This document shows, piece by piece, positions 18,290 to 26,233 of a stretch of DNA of 43,861 bases (its first letter is position 1; every line of letters begins with the position of its first letter). The translations under genes were made by a program, and so were the position numbers. Below the pieces are notes generated by a model, which saw nothing but the letters and a program-made list of their open reading frames with translations, was not told the origin of the DNA and did no database searches. The DNA lies in the NCBI RefSeq assembly GCF_900113655.1, contig NZ_FOQF01000029.1, forward strand, positions 1-43,861, given 5' to 3'. The stretch comes from Pseudobutyrivibrio sp. OR37. Lineage in GTDB: Bacteria > Bacillota > Clostridia > Lachnospirales > Lachnospiraceae.

Positions 18290-18976
18290 TTGACTTTAGC
18301 AGAAAAGCTTGTAGAAGAGCTTAATTGTGAAGAGGTATTTCGAATGCACATTGGTGGCTATGAAATCCCGGTCATGGAATCAGTTGTAGTTACTTGGATT
18401 ATCATGGCTGTGCTTATTCTCTTGGCAATTTTCTTGACTACGGGACTAAAGACACAAAACATCAGTAAAAAGCAGGCTTTTGCAGAGCTTATTTACGAAA
18501 AACTAAATGCTATTGTTGGAGCCACTTTAGGTGAAGAAGGAAAAGCTTATACTGGTTATTTGGTTACAGTACTTTTATACATTGGTTTATCCAACATAAT
18601 AGGTCTATTTGGTTTTAAGTCACCAACCAAAGATGTTAATGTTACAGCAGCACTTGCTCTTATGAGCATTATCTTAGTTGAGGCTGCTGGTATTTATCAG
18701 CTTGGTGTTAAAAAATGGCTACACAAATTCGTAGAGCCAGTTGCAATCGTAACACCATTCAACATCCTTGATGTATTTACCCGTCCATTGTCTTTGTGCA
18801 TGCGACTTTTTGGTAATGTACTTGGTGCATTTGTTATCATGGAATTACTTAAGATTGTAGTTCCACCAGTTATTCCAGCCGTATTCAGTCTCTACTTTGA
18901 TTTATTCGATGGACTGTTACAGGCATACGTATTCGTATTCTTAACTTCTTTGTACATCAAGGAAGCTATTGAATAA
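18290..18976 (+). CDS. atpB: F-type ATP synthase subunit a
   Basis: The membrane stator subunit forming the ion half-channels against the c-ring. The 228 residues contain five or six hydrophobic helices; the penultimate region PLSLCMRLFGNVLGAFVIM carries the essential Arg that faces the c-ring carboxylate. The start is TTG at 18290, set by AGGAGG eight bases upstream. It opens the operon B-E-F-HA-G-D-C; no atpI lies upstream. The 150-bp region before it contains a small AGGTT/AACCT stem and AT-rich DNA, but I cannot place a confident promoter. Confidence 0.95.
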   Translation: MTLAEKLVEELNCEEVFRMHIGGYEIPVMESVVVTWIIMAVLILLAIFLTTGLKTQNISKKQAFAELIYEKLNAIVGATLGEEGKAYTGYLVTVLLYIGLSNIIGLFGFKSPTKDVNVTAALALMSIILVEAAGIYQLGVKKWLHKFVEPVAIVTPFNILDVFTRPLSLCMRLFGNVLGAFVIMELLKIVVPPVIPAVFSLYFDLFDGLLQAYVFVFLTSLYIKEAIE

Positions 18977-19055
18977 TCGTACTAAAAGAAATTTTATTTA
19001 TTAACTAATTTAATGAGTTTGTCAGCGTAACAAACAGACTTAGGAGGAAAAATTT

Positions 19056-19277
19056 ATGAACACTTTAATTGCAGTTGGAGCAGGTATTGCAGTAGTAACA
19101 GGTCTTGGTGCTGGTATTGGTATCGGTATCGCAACAGGTAAGGCATGCGAAGGTATTGCTCGTCAGCCAGAAGCAGAGAGTAAGATTCAGAAGAACCTCA
19201 TTTTAGGTTGTGCCCTTGCAGAAGCAACAGCCATCTATGGTTTCGTTATCGCTCTTATGATTATGTTCGTATTGTAA
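19056..19277 (+). CDS. atpE: F-type ATP synthase subunit c
   Basis: The 73-residue proteolipid that forms the rotor ring: two hydrophobic helices joined by the polar loop ARQPEA (35-40), with the ion-binding carboxylate Glu56 in the second helix (CALAEATAIYG). Relative to Na+-binding c subunits such as that of Ilyobacter tartaricus, the first-helix Gln is Ile23 (GIGIGIATG against GVGQGYAAG) and the residue after the Glu is Ala57 rather than Ser, while Thr58 and Tyr61 are kept. The full Na+ signature is therefore missing and proton coupling is more likely; this is inference. AGGAGG precedes the ATG. The spacer 18977-19055 is A/T rich. Confidence 0.95.
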   Translation: MNTLIAVGAGIAVVTGLGAGIGIGIATGKACEGIARQPEAESKIQKNLILGCALAEATAIYGFVIALMIMFVL

Positions 19278-19319
19278 AAAGCATTTTATATTTTATAAAT
19301 ATAAGGATAGGTAATATAT

Positions 19320-19802
19320 ATGATTAATATTTCATTTTGGAGTATTCTCTGGACAGTAGTCAATCTTCTTATCCTGTTTGTAGCTTTCAGAATCTTCTTC
19401 TTTAAGCCAATTGCCAATATCATTGCAAAGCGCCAGGAAGAAGCAAATGAGGTTTATGCAAAAGCTACAGCAAAGGAAACTGAAGCTAATGAGCTTGCTG
19501 CACAGTATGAACAGAAGGTTGCAGAGGCTGAGACAGAGAAGAAGCAGATTATAGCTGATGCAAGAAAATCAGCAGATGGTCAATATCAGAAGATTGTTGC
19601 TGAGGCTAAGGCTAATGCGTCAGAGATTAAAACAGCAGCAGCTACAGAGGCAAATCGCGAGAAAGAGCAGATTATTGCCAGTGCTAAGAAAGAAATTGCA
19701 GACATTATTGTTGATGCAACTACAAAGGTCGTTGGTGGTCAGACAGGCGCTGAAGTTGATAGCAGTTTGTTTGATGAGTTTATCGGTAAAGCAGGTGAGT
19801 AA
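19320..19802 (+). CDS. atpF: F-type ATP synthase subunit b
   Basis: The peripheral stalk: one N-terminal membrane helix (about 6-28, FWSILWTVVNLLILFVAFRI) followed by a long charged helix rich in Ala, Glu and Lys that dimerises as a right-handed coiled coil, 160 residues as expected. It joins Fo to the delta region on top of F1; here that delta region is fused to alpha, so b must dock on the fusion protein. It stops two bases before the GTG of the next gene, and the end of this gene supplies the AGGTGAG ribosome binding site. Translational coupling is likely. Confidence 0.95.
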   Translation: MINISFWSILWTVVNLLILFVAFRIFFFKPIANIIAKRQEEANEVYAKATAKETEANELAAQYEQKVAEAETEKKQIIADARKSADGQYQKIVAEAKANASEIKTAAATEANREKEQIIASAKKEIADIIVDATTKVVGGQTGAEVDSSLFDEFIGKAGE

Positions 19803-19804
19803 AA

Positions 19805-21820
19805 GTGACAGAGAAAACATTAGAATATGCACACAGTTTGCATAGTATAGCTAATGCAGAAGTTTTTTTGCAGTCTGCCGCTTCTATTCTTGAAGCTGTG
19901 CCTGCAGTTGGCGAAGAGCTACGAAATCCTACAGTGGAGCTTGCAAAAAAGTGTATCGTTGTAGATAGCATCTTCCCACATGAAATTAGAAACTTCTTGA
20001 AGCTTCTATGTTCAAACGGAGATTTTGATTTATTTTATGAAATTAAAGAATCCTTTGAAGATAGCCAGAGGGCTAAATCAGAGGTTGTAGAAAAGGCAAA
20101 GCTTAGATACGTTACAGCTCCATCAGACGAACAGCTTGCTGGAATTAAGAAATTCCTTGTTAAGGAAACAGGCAATGCTGATATCGAAATTAATCTTGTA
20201 AGTGATCCATCTATCAAGAGCGGTTTCATTCTTTCAGTTGGAACAAAGGAGTACGACTGGAGTGAGCAGGGCCGTATCAAGCAGTTGGCCACAAAAATCG
20301 ACGCAGCAGTTGGTATTTCATCAGTTGATGAAAGCATCCTTTCAATTTTGAAGGCTAGCGTTGATGAATTTGAATTAGAGATTAAGGATAACGAAGTTGG
20401 TATTGTAACATGGGTTGGTGATGGTATCGCCAATATCGATGGTATCGACCATGCCTTCTACGGTGAAATCGTTATCTTTGATTGTGGTGTCAAGGGCATG
20501 GTTCAGGATGTTCGACGCGATGAAATCGGTGTTATCCTATTTGGCCGTGACACAGAGATTAAAGAGGGTACACGTGTTGTTCGTACAGGCAAGATGGCTG
20601 GTATACCAGTAGGTAACGGCTTCCTTGGACGTATCGTTGATGCACTTGGTTCTCCTCTTGATGGAGCTGGAGAAATCGATGCAGATGGTTACAGACCAAT
20701 CGAGTGCCCAGCACCAAGCATCGTTGATAGAAAATCCGTTAGTGTTCCTATGGAAACAGGACTTCTTTCAATCGATTCAATGTTCCCAATCGGCCGTGGT
20801 CAGCGTGAGCTTATCATCGGCGATAGACAGACAGGTAAGACATCAATCGCCACTGATACAATCATCAATCAGAAGGGTAAGGATGTTGTCTGTGTTTATG
20901 TTGCAATCGGTCAGAAGGCTTCTACCGTTGCAAAGCTTGTAAACACATTAAAAGAACACGGCGCTATGGATTATACAATCATCGTAAATGCTACTGCATC
21001 TGATTCAGCATCATTGCAGTACATCGCTCCTTACGCTGGTACAGCGCTTGCAGAATTCTTCATGTATTCAGGCAAGGATGTACTTATCGTTTATGATGAT
21101 TTATCAAAGCATGCCGTTGCATATCGTGCTATTTCACTTCTTCTTGAGCGTTCTCCAGGACGTGAGGCATACCCTGGTGATGTATTCTACTTACACTCAA
21201 GATTGCTAGAGCGAAGCGCACGAATCACAGATGAAGCAGGAGGCGGTTCAATCACAGCCCTTCCAATCATTGAAACACAGGCTGGTGACTTATCAGCTTA
21301 TATTCCTACAAATGTTATTTCCATCACAGATGGTCAGATATTCCTTGAGTCAGAGCTTTTCAATGCTGGTCAGCGCCCAGCGGTAAACGTAGGTCTTTCA
21401 GTTTCCCGTGTAGGTGGTGCCGCGCAGACAAAGGCTATGAAGAAGGCAGCAGGTTCTGTTCGTATCGACCTTGCTCAGTATCGTGAAATGGAAGTATTCA
21501 CTCAGTTCTCATCAGACCTTGATGATGCAACTAAGAAGCAGCTTGCTCATGGACGAGCTCTTATGGAGCTTTTGAAGCAGCCACTTTCACGTCCATTCTC
21601 AATGGCAGAGCAGGTAATCATTTTGGTATCTGCTAACGCACACATCTTCAGTGATGTAGCGCTTTCAGATATCAAGAAGTTCAGAACAGATATGCTGAAT
21701 TTCTTCAAGACAGAGCACTCAGATATCATCAGCCAGCTGGAATCATCAAAGGATTTATCAGATGGCATAAAGGCTGCAATCATTGATGCCGCTACTGAAT
21801 TTAAGAAGAATCAGGAGTAA
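19805..21820 (+). CDS. atpHA: fused F-type ATP synthase subunits delta and alpha
   Basis: One 671-residue frame encodes delta (about 1-165) joined to a complete alpha (about 172-671). The delta part ends with VSDPSIKSGFILSVGTKEYD, the conserved delta C-terminus. The alpha part starts with the helix SSVDESILSILKASVDEF, which in ordinary alpha binds delta, then VGIVTWVGDGIANIDGIDHA, Walker A GDRQTGKT (339-346) and the C-terminal helical domain. No stop or frameshift lies at the junction, and I find no in-frame ATG or GTG with a Shine-Dalgarno there that would give free alpha. F1 normally has three alpha and one delta, so stoichiometry is a puzzle: extra deltas, processing or hidden re-initiation. 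Start GTG at 19805. Confidence 0.93.
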   Translation: MTEKTLEYAHSLHSIANAEVFLQSAASILEAVPAVGEELRNPTVELAKKCIVVDSIFPHEIRNFLKLLCSNGDFDLFYEIKESFEDSQRAKSEVVEKAKLRYVTAPSDEQLAGIKKFLVKETGNADIEINLVSDPSIKSGFILSVGTKEYDWSEQGRIKQLATKIDAAVGISSVDESILSILKASVDEFELEIKDNEVGIVTWVGDGIANIDGIDHAFYGEIVIFDCGVKGMVQDVRRDEIGVILFGRDTEIKEGTRVVRTGKMAGIPVGNGFLGRIVDALGSPLDGAGEIDADGYRPIECPAPSIVDRKSVSVPMETGLLSIDSMFPIGRGQRELIIGDRQTGKTSIATDTIINQKGKDVVCVYVAIGQKASTVAKLVNTLKEHGAMDYTIIVNATASDSASLQYIAPYAGTALAEFFMYSGKDVLIVYDDLSKHAVAYRAISLLLERSPGREAYPGDVFYLHSRLLERSARITDEAGGGSITALPIIETQAGDLSAYIPTNVISITDGQIFLESELFNAGQRPAVNVGLSVSRVGGAAQTKAMKKAAGSVRIDLAQYREMEVFTQFSSDLDDATKKQLAHGRALMELLKQPLSRPFSMAEQVIILVSANAHIFSDVALSDIKKFRTDMLNFFKTEHSDIISQLESSKDLSDGIKAAIIDAATEFKKNQE

Positions 21821-21823
21821 TCT

Positions 21824-22849
21824 ATGGCTAGTACAAAGGAAATCCAAAATAGAATAAATAGTATTCAGGATACCATGAAGATTACTAGAGCCATGTACAT
21901 GATGTCTTCAATGAAGCTGAGAAAGGCAAGAAAGAAGCTGGAAGAGACTGAGCCATTTTTCAAGGGTACTCAGATCGGACTGGCAGAATGCCTGGCTCAT
22001 TTCCCAGATATCAGACATATCTATTTTGATAACCGAGTAGAAGATGATAATGAATCCATGAAAAAGCATGGAATCATCGTCTTCACAGGCGATAAAGGAA
22101 TGGCAGGTGCTTACAACCACAACGCCATCAAGCTTGCGGTTGATCGTGTAAAAGGTATAGCTGATGGAGATGATTGTACGCTGTTTGTTGTTGGTGAGGT
22201 TGGACGTTCATTCTTCTTGAACGGTGGATACAAGGTTGACGAGAATTTCAGATTTTCATCAAACAATCCTTCCATGCACCGCGCCAGAGTAATGGCATCA
22301 TACATGATTGATTTGTACAACAAGGGTGAGCTTGACAGGATAGATGTGGTCTACACAAAGATGCTTAACTCAATCACTGAGGAGGTATGTGTAGAACGTC
22401 TACTTCCACTTAAGACACATAAGTTTATCAAGGAACAGGCAGAGGAAATCGCAGCTGATTCCGAGGGCGTAAGTAAAGCCGCCCGAGAGATGAAGGAAGG
22501 CATCAAGCATGTTCACTCCATCAACAGCTACGAAATGGAGGCTATATCTCAAGGAGATAATTTCATTCCATTTTATCCTTCTGTTTCGGTTGTCCTAGAG
22601 AAGCTTGTACAAAATCATTTTACAGCCTTCTGCTATGGAGCTTTAGTAGAATGTTCAGCCAGTGAGGAAAACGCCAGAATGATGGCCATGCAATCTGCAA
22701 CTGATAATGCGGAGGCAATTCTTCATGATTTATCTATAGAATACAACAGAGTGCGTCAGGCCCAGATTACACAGGAAATTACCGAGGTAATCGGTGGTGC
22801 CAAGGCACTTAAGAAAAAGAAAGAGAAAAAGAAATTACAGAACAAATAA
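21824..22849 (+). CDS. atpG: F-type ATP synthase subunit gamma (enlarged)
   Basis: The central rotor shaft. The N-terminal helix (TKEIQNRINSIQDTMKITRA) and the C-terminal helix (SATDNAEAILHDLSIEYNRV, then RQAQITQEITEVIGGAKAL) form the coiled coil inside the alpha/beta ring. At 341 residues it is about 50 longer than usual. The excess is a charged insert at about 200-245 (between ERLLPLKTHKFIKEQ and GDNFIPFYPS) and a Lys-rich C-terminal tail (KKKKEKKKLQNK). The insert sits in the globular domain facing the foot of the rotor. AGGAG at the end of the upstream gene serves as ribosome binding site; three bases separate the genes. Confidence 0.93.
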   Translation: MASTKEIQNRINSIQDTMKITRAMYMMSSMKLRKARKKLEETEPFFKGTQIGLAECLAHFPDIRHIYFDNRVEDDNESMKKHGIIVFTGDKGMAGAYNHNAIKLAVDRVKGIADGDDCTLFVVGEVGRSFFLNGGYKVDENFRFSSNNPSMHRARVMASYMIDLYNKGELDRIDVVYTKMLNSITEEVCVERLLPLKTHKFIKEQAEEIAADSEGVSKAAREMKEGIKHVHSINSYEMEAISQGDNFIPFYPSVSVVLEKLVQNHFTAFCYGALVECSASEENARMMAMQSATDNAEAILHDLSIEYNRVRQAQITQEITEVIGGAKALKKKKEKKKLQNK

Positions 22850-22886
22850 TTATTTTCGAGCACCGTTGCTTGGAAATGAGAGGTGA

Positions 22887-24293
<1,407 letters not shown>

Positions 24294-24296
24294 CTT

Positions 24297-24713
24297 ATGG
24301 CATCAGTATTTAATCTTAAAATAGTGGCTTGTAACGGAGTCTTTTACGATGGACCAAGCGAGATGCTTGTGTACCCAGCTGACGATGGTGAAATCGCCAT
24401 CATGAATCATCACGAGAAGATGACAGGTGTGGTAGATATCGGTGAAATCCGCTTCAAGCTTGAAGATGGCACCTGGCAGCACGCAATCATTTCAGATGGC
24501 TTGCTTTCAGTATATCCCGACGGCGGTGTCAAGATTCTGGCCTACTCCTGCGAGAAGCCAGAAGACATCGACACCTTTAGAGCTCAGGAAGCTTTAGAGC
24601 GTGCTCAGGATGCATTGCAACAGAAGCAAAGCTATATTGAACACCAGATGTCAATCGCAAACATGGCCCGCGCCATGGCCCGACTTAAAGGCGCAAGCCA
24701 CCATAATAATTAA
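24297..24713 (+). CDS. atpC: F-type ATP synthase subunit epsilon
   Basis: Rotor-foot subunit that couples gamma to the c-ring and can inhibit ATP hydrolysis. The 138 residues show the N-terminal beta-sandwich (NLKIVACNGVFYDGPSEMLV, with PADDGEIAIMNHHEKM) and a C-terminal two-helix region (about 90-138, rich in Ala and Gln). Three bases separate it from atpD, whose end carries AAGGAG. It closes the operon, followed by a strong terminator. Confidence 0.95.
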   Translation: MASVFNLKIVACNGVFYDGPSEMLVYPADDGEIAIMNHHEKMTGVVDIGEIRFKLEDGTWQHAIISDGLLSVYPDGGVKILAYSCEKPEDIDTFRAQEALERAQDALQQKQSYIEHQMSIANMARAMARLKGASHHNN

Positions 24714-24891: not shown

Positions 24892-24971
24892 GCGGGTGTG
24901 GCGGAATTGGCAGACGCGCTAGATTTAGGTTCTAGTGGGCGACCGTGCAGGTTCAAGTCCTGTCACCCGCA
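24892..24971 (+). tRNA. tRNA-Leu (anticodon UAG), prophage integration site
   Basis: Acceptor GCGGGTG (24892-24898) pairs with CACCCGC (24964-24970), with discriminator A. The anticodon arm CTAGA / TTTAGGT / TCTAG gives anticodon TAG. There is a long variable arm and a T-arm with GGTTCAAGTCC. CCA is not encoded. The integrase gene lies 150 bases downstream pointing toward it, as for elements that integrate into tRNA 3' ends; the tRNA is intact. Confidence 0.92.
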
Positions 24972-25000
24972 TCTCAGAAGCGCCAATAGGCGTAAACGAA
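24950..25000. other. probable left attachment site (attL) at the tRNA-Leu 3' end
   Basis: Inferred from the tRNA followed directly by a tyrosine integrase and phage genes. The core is probably within the T-arm and acceptor 3' half. The matching right copy is not found in this window, so core limits are unknown. Confidence 0.5.
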
Positions 25001-25043
25001 AAGAGCACATTCCTTGATTTTTCAAGGTTTGTGCTCTTTTTTG
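25001..25043 (+). terminator. terminator after tRNA-Leu
   Basis: AAGAGCACA (25001-25009) pairs with TGTGCTCTT (25030-25038) with an inner CCTTG/CAAGG stem, then six T. Confidence 0.85.
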
Positions 25044-25066
25044 ATGTAAATAAGTGGCAATATTTT

Positions 25067-25116
25067 TGCCCCTTAATTGCCCCTTTTTGAAAAAATGTGC
25101 CCCTTAATTGCCCCTT
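25067..25116. repeat. direct repeats next to the integrase gene, candidate arm-type sites
   Basis: The octamer TGCCCCTT occurs four times, as two pairs at 25067/25078 and 25098/25109. Within each pair the period is 11 bases, one helical turn; the pairs are 31 bases apart. They lie between the tRNA end and the integrase stop, where lambda- and Tn916-type integrases bind arm sites. Confidence 0.6.
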
Positions 25117-25117
25117 A

Positions 25118-26233
25118 TTAAGCAAGTAGATTAACAGAGCGGACAAGTTCCTTATCCTTTTCTTTCATTCTCTCAGTAACGTGCAGATATATCTTTTTAG
25201 TGATTCTTGAATCCTCGTGGCCAACTCTTCTTGTAATGGTATCAAGAGGCACGCCAGCCTCAGCAAGAAGTGACACATGAGTATGTCTTAGCACATGAGT
25301 AGTTATTGGACGCTTCAGAACATCCTCTGACGTCTTCTTAAGGTATTTATTAAAAGCATAATAATTCAAATAATCCCCGTTTTCATCACAGAAGAATAAG
25401 CGAAGCCTCAAGCCTGTTTTAAACCGTCTAGCGTTTAGATCCTTTTTAATCTCCTGGCACAAAGATTCAAGCTCAGGTTGCATATCTATATCTCTATTAG
25501 AGCAGCTGGTCTTGGGAGAGTGCACATCAGATTTTATCTGAGCGTCTAAAGTTTTGTTAATGTGTATCTTCTTATTTCTGAAATCAACATCAACGATTGT
25601 AAGAGCTAGCACTTCACCTACACGCATCCCCGTAAGAGCCATGAACTGAGTAAGCCCTTTCCACCGTTGCACCTTCATAGAATTAACAAGAAGGTTCAGC
25701 TCCTCACGTTCTAGGAACTTATGCTCTAGCTTCTCCTTAGCCTCTTTATCATTTACAGGCTTTAGCTTGTCAATCCATCTGATATCTGCAATATAGTCAT
25801 TATCATAAGCCCAGTGCATAAACGATTTGAACCTAACGAGCCTCTCGTTCTTGGTGCTAGCCTTGTCTCTTGTGGAATATAGATTATTGGCCACGTACCC
25901 AGCAGTCAGGTTGGAGACGATTGCAGCAGGATTAAGCATCTTGCAAATGGTGTTAAGAGTGCTCCTGTTGCGCTTAACAGTTCCTTTGGTAACAGTTTTT
26001 GCTTGATATTCGATATAAAGGTCCGCAAGCTCTCCAAGAGTAATGTTCTCATGCTTGAGAGCAGGGGTAGATGCAGCGGCTATCTTTTCAGCCAGGATTG
26101 CAGCAGCATCCTTCCTAGTCATTTTATTATCTTTTAGAAGAGTAACAGAGACCTTCTTAGTTTTACCCGTGAGAGGGTCTTTGTATCTCTCACAGAATTT
26201 AAATTTTCCATTATCTAAAGGTTCAACCCACAT
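25118..26233 (-). CDS. int: prophage tyrosine integrase
   Basis: Site-specific recombinase for prophage integration and excision. The 371 residues show an N-terminal arm-binding domain (about 1-60), a SAM-like core-binding domain (about 65-165; LGELADLYIEYQAKTVTKGT) and a catalytic domain with Arg in MALTGMRVGEVLAL (about 205), HVLRHTH with the H-x-x-R pair (about 315), VGHEDSRITKKIYLHV with the second His and the nucleophilic Tyr. All catalytic residues are present. GGAGG lies eight bases before the ATG. Its 3' end points to tRNA-Leu with four TGCCCCTT repeats between, fitting integration at that tRNA. Confidence 0.95.
   Translation of the reverse strand: MWVEPLDNGKFKFCERYKDPLTGKTKKVSVTLLKDNKMTRKDAAAILAEKIAAASTPALKHENITLGELADLYIEYQAKTVTKGTVKRNRSTLNTICKMLNPAAIVSNLTAGYVANNLYSTRDKASTKNERLVRFKSFMHWAYDNDYIADIRWIDKLKPVNDKEAKEKLEHKFLEREELNLLVNSMKVQRWKGLTQFMALTGMRVGEVLALTIVDVDFRNKKIHINKTLDAQIKSDVHSPKTSCSNRDIDMQPELESLCQEIKKDLNARRFKTGLRLRLFFCDENGDYLNYYAFNKYLKKTSEDVLKRPITTHVLRHTHVSLLAEAGVPLDTITRRVGHEDSRITKKIYLHVTERMKEKDKELVRSVNLLA

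Follow-up and report, generated by a model that had tools for sequence, protein, structure and literature searches.

A textbook rule for F-type ATP synthases is that each enzyme has one delta subunit and one peripheral stalk. In work on the Bacillus PS3 enzyme, the N-terminal domain (NTD) of delta was removed and the C-terminal domain (CTD) was fused to alpha, and the resulting enzyme is reported to assemble and work (Ueno et al. 2025, PMC12229609). This deltaDeltaN-alpha FoF1 is described there as having up to three stalks and a-subunits, with an average of about two and with triple-stalk particles being rare in cryo-EM; its proton pumping was below that of the wild type, and its H+/ATP ratio was 5.8 rather than 3.0 (PMC12229609). 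In the same paper, the NTD, located on the symmetry axis, is viewed as limiting the stalks to one, and natural NTD-less fusions are named (Acidaminococcus fermentans, UniProt G4Q3K6 and A0A1I2C5T3). Among the papers listed in our literature searches, none was seen to describe a delta-alpha fusion of full length.

Here we describe such a fusion, through which bacteria of the rumen and gut that can be cultured break the rule of one delta and one stalk at the level of the gene. With delta and alpha made as one protein, each enzyme should carry three anchors, not one.

Delta and alpha in a single frame

The window, that is, the whole stretch of DNA analyzed, comprises 43,861 nucleotides of Pseudobutyrivibrio sp. 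OR37 (contig NZ_FOQF01000029.1) and contains an ATP synthase operon at positions 18290 to 24713, arranged in the order a, c, b, delta-alpha, gamma, beta, epsilon (Table 1). The original prediction was that one frame of this operon holds a full delta and a full alpha with no stop between them, and the open reading frame (ORF) listing and the Pfam and NCBIfam matches bore this out. The frame, atpHA, opens with a GTG codon 2 bases past the b stop codon, has no internal stop, and is predicted to encode a chain of ~73 kDa in which both delta (OSCP) and alpha are complete. The Pfam OSCP match covered residues 8 to 164 (E value of 6e-19); PF00213 scored 69 bits relative to a cutoff of 22, with these residues of the 671 aligned to profile positions 5 to 171, covering both delta domains. 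The ATP-synt_ab_N, ab, and ab_C domains (Pfam) fell inside residues 197 to 666, and TIGR00962 (NCBIfam atpA) matched residues 176 to 669 with 752 bits relative to a cutoff of 484. With TIGR03324, the profile for the alternate F1F0 (N-ATPase), the window alpha scored 612 bits, below the curated cutoff of 750.5 bits.

The junction had been placed at the delta-contacting helix of alpha, rightly in our judgment, and this helix (residues 178 to 196) is retained. The linker preceding it is ~9 residues long in the window and 6 to 18 residues (median, 9) in the full fusions described below, and its sequence is not conserved.

Table 1. Features of the fused ATP synthase operon in the window
Feature	Coordinates	Strand	Support
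atpB, subunit a, 228 aa, TTG start	18290..18976	+	PF00119, E value of 9e-41; NF004486 above cutoff
atpE, subunit c, 73 aa	19056..19277	+	PF00137; motifs GIGIGIATG and AEATAIY
atpF, subunit b, 160 aa	19320..19802	+	PF00430
atpHA, fused delta-alpha, 671 aa	19805..21820	+	Pfam, NCBIfam, conservation in the genus
delta NTD, residues 1-92, six predicted helices	19805..20080	+	OSCP match 8-164; AlphaFold2 pLDDT of 92-94 at residues 21-80
delta CTD (b-binding), residues 97-168	20093..20308	+	OSCP match; AlphaFold2 pLDDT of ~72
linker, residues 169-177, variable	20309..20335	+	low confidence in both AlphaFold models
alpha N-terminal helix, residues 178-196, retained	20336..20392	+	alignment with separate alphas of relatives
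alpha body, residues 197-671	20393..21817	+	TIGR00962
atpG, gamma, enlarged, 341 aa	21824..22849	+	PF00231; length comparison
atpD, beta	22893..24293	+	TIGR01039
atpC, epsilon	24297..24713	+	PF02823, PF00401

Two further features had been pointed out in this operon, an enlarged gamma and a missing atpI. The window gamma is indeed long at 341 aa. The 25 members of the genus that were measured have a gamma of 335 to 341 aa, 13 other full fusions one of 296 to 338 aa, and 42 relatives with a separate delta one of 289 to 309 aa, so that the large gamma is mainly a trait of the genus Pseudobutyrivibrio and a few relatives. The ORF listing likewise contained no frame of at least 60 aa in the interval from the end of the preceding gene (18088) to the a gene, but four unfused relatives (L071 to L074) also lacked, as judged by eye, a small membrane frame ahead of their a gene; a link between the fused operon and the loss of atpI was rejected on this ground.

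Next to the operon, from about 24895 to 26233 and onward, an apparent leucine tRNA gene (recognized by eye) precedes a frame for a site-specific recombinase (25118-26233, minus strand) and phage-like genes, a stretch that is probably an integrated element.

Occurrence of full and NTD-less fusions

A stop codon deleted in sequencing or assembly would also yield a single frame, and we give this explanation practically no credence. Full-length fused frames without stops were found in 26 of the 29 genus genomes (78 to 100% identical), and the three genomes without one (G015 to G017) are 81 to 86% complete. Among the best 80 of 567 confirmed candidate loci, a set that shares assemblies with the family and genus genomes, 59 were full fusions, 19 were NTD-less, 1 was separate, and 1 was unclear. 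Full fusions occur in several culture-collection strains, such as the rumen strain P. ruminis DSM 9787 (L175), P. xylanivorans DSM 14809, Lactobacillus rogosae ATCC 27753, and Eubacterium uniforme ATCC 35992, as well as in Agathobacter ruminis JK623. The artefact explanation was rejected on these grounds, and with it the possibility that a sequencing error had removed a stop at the junction; the fused frame is genuine.

For a survey of the family, alphas were taken from the matches listed down to an E value of 4e-196 in 299 genomes plus those of the genus; the incomplete frame of G175 was dropped, and eight alphas of the other, ordinary type served as the outgroup. The 141 alphas classed as the window type comprised 54 with a separate delta, 45 full fusions (26 in the genus and 19 elsewhere), and 42 fusions lacking the NTD. 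In the last group, no NTD match (E value of 0.01) was found in the frame or in the frames just upstream, and the nearest upstream frame was b-sized (149 to 204 aa) in 39 of the 42. Delta-alpha fusions, which the original prediction had proposed looking for in other Lachnospiraceae, are thus widespread there. The prediction recognized a true fusion but missed its spread, its NTD-less state, the additional operon elsewhere in the genome, and the engineered counterpart. In the class Clostridia (391 genomes), stop-free frames with delta and alpha were present in at least 26 genomes of 15 other families among the matches listed, and a domain profile applied to 17 of these 26 genomes (11 families) classed 13 as NTD-less and 4 as full. 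Fused frames of ~600 aa, only distantly like the window frame, were seen in families f7 (G445, G553, G654, and G328), f52 (G396), and f10 (G656); they are possible further independent fusions.

Several unusual arrangements were encountered. A 778-aa frame (G096:C33, L136:2003-4339, plus strand), one of the three NTD-less fusions whose nearest upstream frame is not b-sized, combines b, the delta CTD, and alpha, and upstream of it only a and c frames and no separate b were seen; if real, it would bring three b chains to each F1. On metagenome-assembled contig CAKNOA010000010.1, a 782-aa frame (L240:4404-6749, plus strand) has two tandem copies of the delta NTD ahead of its CTD and alpha parts. 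A 756-aa fusion (L166, G321) has ~80 extra, mostly charged residues beyond the alpha domain, and one genome (G169; contigs C51, C10, and C34) has an unfused operon of the window type, an NTD-less fused operon, and another separate delta.

A second operon and the likely coupling ion

The window genome (3.56 Mb in 81 contigs, 99.99% complete) also has an ordinary F-ATPase operon on contig C46 (L003), with a PF09527 gene upstream. It encodes a free delta of 188 aa and a free alpha of 504 aa which is 56% identical to the fused alpha; at least 21 of the 29 genus genomes have this free alpha in full length. Its c subunit has GIGQGIAAG and AETTGLY in place of the window motifs (Table 1). We take the Gln in this motif to denote the Na+ type, so that the second enzyme would be of the Na+ type and the window c, which has no Gln and hence presumably no Na+ ligand motif, of the H+ type. 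Both H+- and Na+-dependent ATP synthase activities have been found in P. ruminis membranes, as stated in a review citing Schoelmerich 2020 (PMC11026938). Together with the c motifs, this makes it probable that the window operon encodes the H+ enzyme in the two-circuit scheme of P. ruminis. An organism with a fused H+-type and an ordinary Na+-type operon would offer a built-in control.

Evolutionary history

In a tree of alpha bodies (149 rows), the window type formed one clade apart from the ordinary type with a support of 100, and 83 fused alphas (43 full and 40 NTD-less) formed one clade with a support of 98, in which the full and NTD-less forms were intermixed. On this tree, in which 63 of the 146 inner branches were open and re-rooting may have moved some support labels, irreversible NTD loss would have occurred at least 5 times counting branches with a support of at least 95, 9 times at 80, and 15 times on the best tree. 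The corresponding number of fusion gains was 1 (at 90 or 95), 2 (at 80), or 3 (best tree), G078 being the clearest case of an extra fusion. We infer that the window version, with its NTD kept, is probably the precursor state of the NTD-less fusion.

A second tree (90 rows) added complexity. The full fusions of family f20 grouped with a separate form of their own family with a support of 100, most simply indicating an independent fusion, and NTD-less forms of other families were nested within the Lachnospiraceae NTD-less group, which suggests gene transfer between families. Two separate forms of another family, f14, namely G472f14 (L261) and G400f14 (L263), fell inside the fused clade (support of 95), the latter within a group of NTD-less forms supported at 97. 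These could reflect splitting, transfer, extra fusions, or tree error, and their placement counts against a simple one-way history of fusion. G110 and G211 switched position between the two trees.

Constraint and predicted structure of the delta part

Substitution rates were compared among 19 genus genomes, using the 162 of 171 pairs with an alpha dS of 0.05 to 1.2. The dN/dS values, which are rough because dS was high and uneven, were ~0.18 for the NTD, 0.13 for the CTD, 0.34 for the linker, 0.16 for the alpha helix, and 0.08 for the alpha body of the fused gene, versus 0.08, 0.17, 0, and 0.05 for the NTD, CTD, alpha helix, and alpha body of the second operon in the same genomes. The NTD dN was 3.7-fold that of the accompanying alpha body in the fused gene and 4.2-fold in the second operon.

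Pairs matched for an alpha-body identity of 0.72 to 0.80 had an NTD identity of 0.335 in separate and 0.341 in fused forms. CTD identity was 0.384 in separate, 0.461 in fused, and 0.418 in NTD-less forms. Identity of the alpha N-terminal helix was 0.572, 0.434, and 0.343, respectively; these pairs share rows, and the order for the helix was the same in disjoint pairs, where the alpha bodies of NTD-less forms were also less alike (0.688 versus 0.753). From these comparisons, the window NTD appears to be under purifying selection and not decaying, though looser than that of the second operon in raw dN/dS. A decaying NTD in the genus was unsupported by the matched identities or by alpha-relative dN, while its raw dN/dS exceeded that of the second-operon NTD (0.18 versus 0.08). 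Our reading of the helix values is that the alpha helix meeting delta was freed once delta and alpha were tied together.

AlphaFold2 modeled the delta part as a six-helix NTD followed by a less confident CTD (Table 1), with a mean pLDDT of 74.6 and a pTM of 0.47; the whole-chain AlphaFold model was mediocre (mean pLDDT of 67.6). The best Foldseek matches of the delta model were the delta/OSCP chains 6vof_d (E value of 2e-8) and 6n2y_I (E value of 1e-7), with TM-scores over the full delta length that were low, mostly 0.3 to 0.4, because the interdomain angle is poorly set in the model. In the same listing, chains S and W of the Chloroflexus ATP synthase (PDB 9itk) both matched delta. This is perhaps a natural enzyme with two deltas, on which a literature search found no paper.

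Integrity of the fused chain and the number of stalks

Should the fused chain be cleaved, or alpha also be started internally, the enzyme would have free alpha and one delta and the classical 3:1 stoichiometry would be preserved. The linker is variable and modeled with low confidence, and the window junction has two in-frame TTG codons, though no ATG or GTG. As claimed originally, there is no visible internal ribosome site in the window, neither TTG being preceded by a Shine-Dalgarno match of at least 4 bases. Across the 45 full fusions, an in-frame ATG, GTG, or TTG in the stretch that separates the delta CTD from the alpha body was absent in 25 and present in 20, and in 2 of the 45 such a codon had a Shine-Dalgarno match of at least 5 bases; among NTD-less genes, 33 of 42 had some junction start codon, 5 of them with such a match. 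The same 5-base test was passed by 35 of 45 full fusions at their own start, 18 of 42 NTD-less starts, and 21 of 54 starts of separate alphas, and since so many real alpha starts fail it, a missing Shine-Dalgarno match alone says little. More telling is that most full fusions have no junction start codon at all, and on this ground, weak as the Shine-Dalgarno test is, we rejected internal initiation as a conserved device. With a linker that is both short and unconserved, and with NTD-less CTD-alpha fusions that would hardly be sensible were the link cut, we regard cleavage or internal initiation as improbable. Another way to dilute delta would be a mixed F1, with the fused alpha in one of three places and the free alpha of the second operon in the other two. 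Such an alpha is available in the window genome and in much of the genus, but it differs from the fused alpha at nearly half of its positions, and free subunits are not general among fused genomes. When the 61 fused genomes outside the genus (42 NTD-less and 19 full) were searched with the OSCP profile, no second delta above the cutoff was found in 24 (18 NTD-less and 6 full), each of which had a single alpha match at an E value of 1e-60, so every alpha there should carry a delta CTD. Fifteen of the 18 NTD-less genomes are at least 90% complete, and in these 18 no NTD was found at all; in two of them, G165 and G090, the profile alignment extends upstream, but through stops in the b gene, and was not counted as an NTD. 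Mixing with free subunits was rejected as a general answer, and for the window enzyme we consider it very improbable.

The reading that we favor, with reasonable though far from full confidence, is that the chain stays intact and is present in three copies, with one NTD docked, one stalk as the usual state, and the NTD becoming dispensable later. The claim that each F1 would receive three deltas provided that the chain stays whole is, in our judgment, right. The window operon would encode the F-type ATP synthase that serves the proton circuit, with delta-alpha as one uncleaved 73-kDa chain. F1 would be built from three such chains, so that each alpha has its own covalently tied delta CTD, the holder of the b dimer. 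One NTD would most likely occupy the central socket atop F1 as in ordinary enzymes, with the other two displaced; the enzyme would then mostly have a single, firmly tethered peripheral stalk, probably with two docking sites to spare. With the adaptor role of the NTD taken over by the covalent tie, the NTD would become dispensable, as its repeated loss in relatives suggests, and the NTD-less relatives would match the engineered enzyme with its up to three stalks. Against this reading stand the geometric objection that three NTDs cannot share one central socket, the fused NTD dN/dS exceeding that of the second operon, the f14 forms, the many open branches of the first tree, the weak Shine-Dalgarno control, and the junction start codons of 20 full and 33 NTD-less fusions. 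Alternatively, the full fusion may already be multi-stalk, its NTDs swinging aside and each CTD holding its own b dimer and a-subunit; the enzyme could then have as many as three stalks, and its raised H+/ATP ratio would suit a low proton force. The stalks and H+/ATP ratio of the engineered fusion agree with this, as do the less conserved alpha N-terminal helix and well-kept CTD of fused forms. An EchE-like gene (PF00346) was present in 21 of 61 fused versus 4 of 53 unfused genomes (Fisher p of 6e-4; G169 left out and the window genus represented by G000 only); this raw contrast is strong, but it reduces to 2 to 3 independent contrasts on the tree, too few for the Ech link to be a result rather than a hint. 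Ueno et al. regard the NTD as limiting stalks to one, and triple-stalk particles were rare even in their own NTD-less sample (PMC12229609), while the window NTD is kept and appears constrained. We consider a multi-stalk full fusion unlikely, though, as the main rival, clearly less so than a cut chain. Somewhat less doubtful, but still tentative, is the view that the full fusion is an evolutionary gateway, possibly already multi-stalk, with stalk number an evolving trait switched by at least five NTD losses.

Comparison with known systems

The second operon of the window genome has the same subunits and gene order as the fused operon but differs in its separate delta and alpha, its presumably Na+-type c motif, and its upstream PF09527 gene. 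The mycobacterial b-delta fusion (PDB 7jg5, 7njk, and others), entries of which were among the Foldseek fold matches of the delta model, resembles the window in joining delta to another stator subunit. There the partner is, as we understand it, b, so that each enzyme has one delta and no stoichiometry problem arises. The natural operons named by Ueno et al. (Acidaminococcus fermentans and the two UniProt entries), compared by description only, have the same fusion order as the window and are predicted by those authors to be multi-stalk, but unlike the window they lack the NTD, as do the 42 NTD-less relatives. Of the 60 PDB sequence matches listed out of 68, the engineered PS3 deltaDeltaN-alpha (PDB 9jc1) was the only one to span delta as well as alpha. 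In this protein and in the window, the delta CTD is joined by a short linker to the alpha N terminus, whereas the PS3 protein is engineered without the delta NTD and the window retains a six-helix NTD, absent from the 42 relatives. By domain content, those 42 relatives fit the design of Ueno et al., and the full fusion, which keeps an apparently constrained NTD, would be a variant different from the one in the main-text parts of that paper (PMC12229609). The graded natural series of separate, fused, and fused without the NTD would allow direct tests of the roles of the delta domains and of how the H+/ATP ratio evolves.
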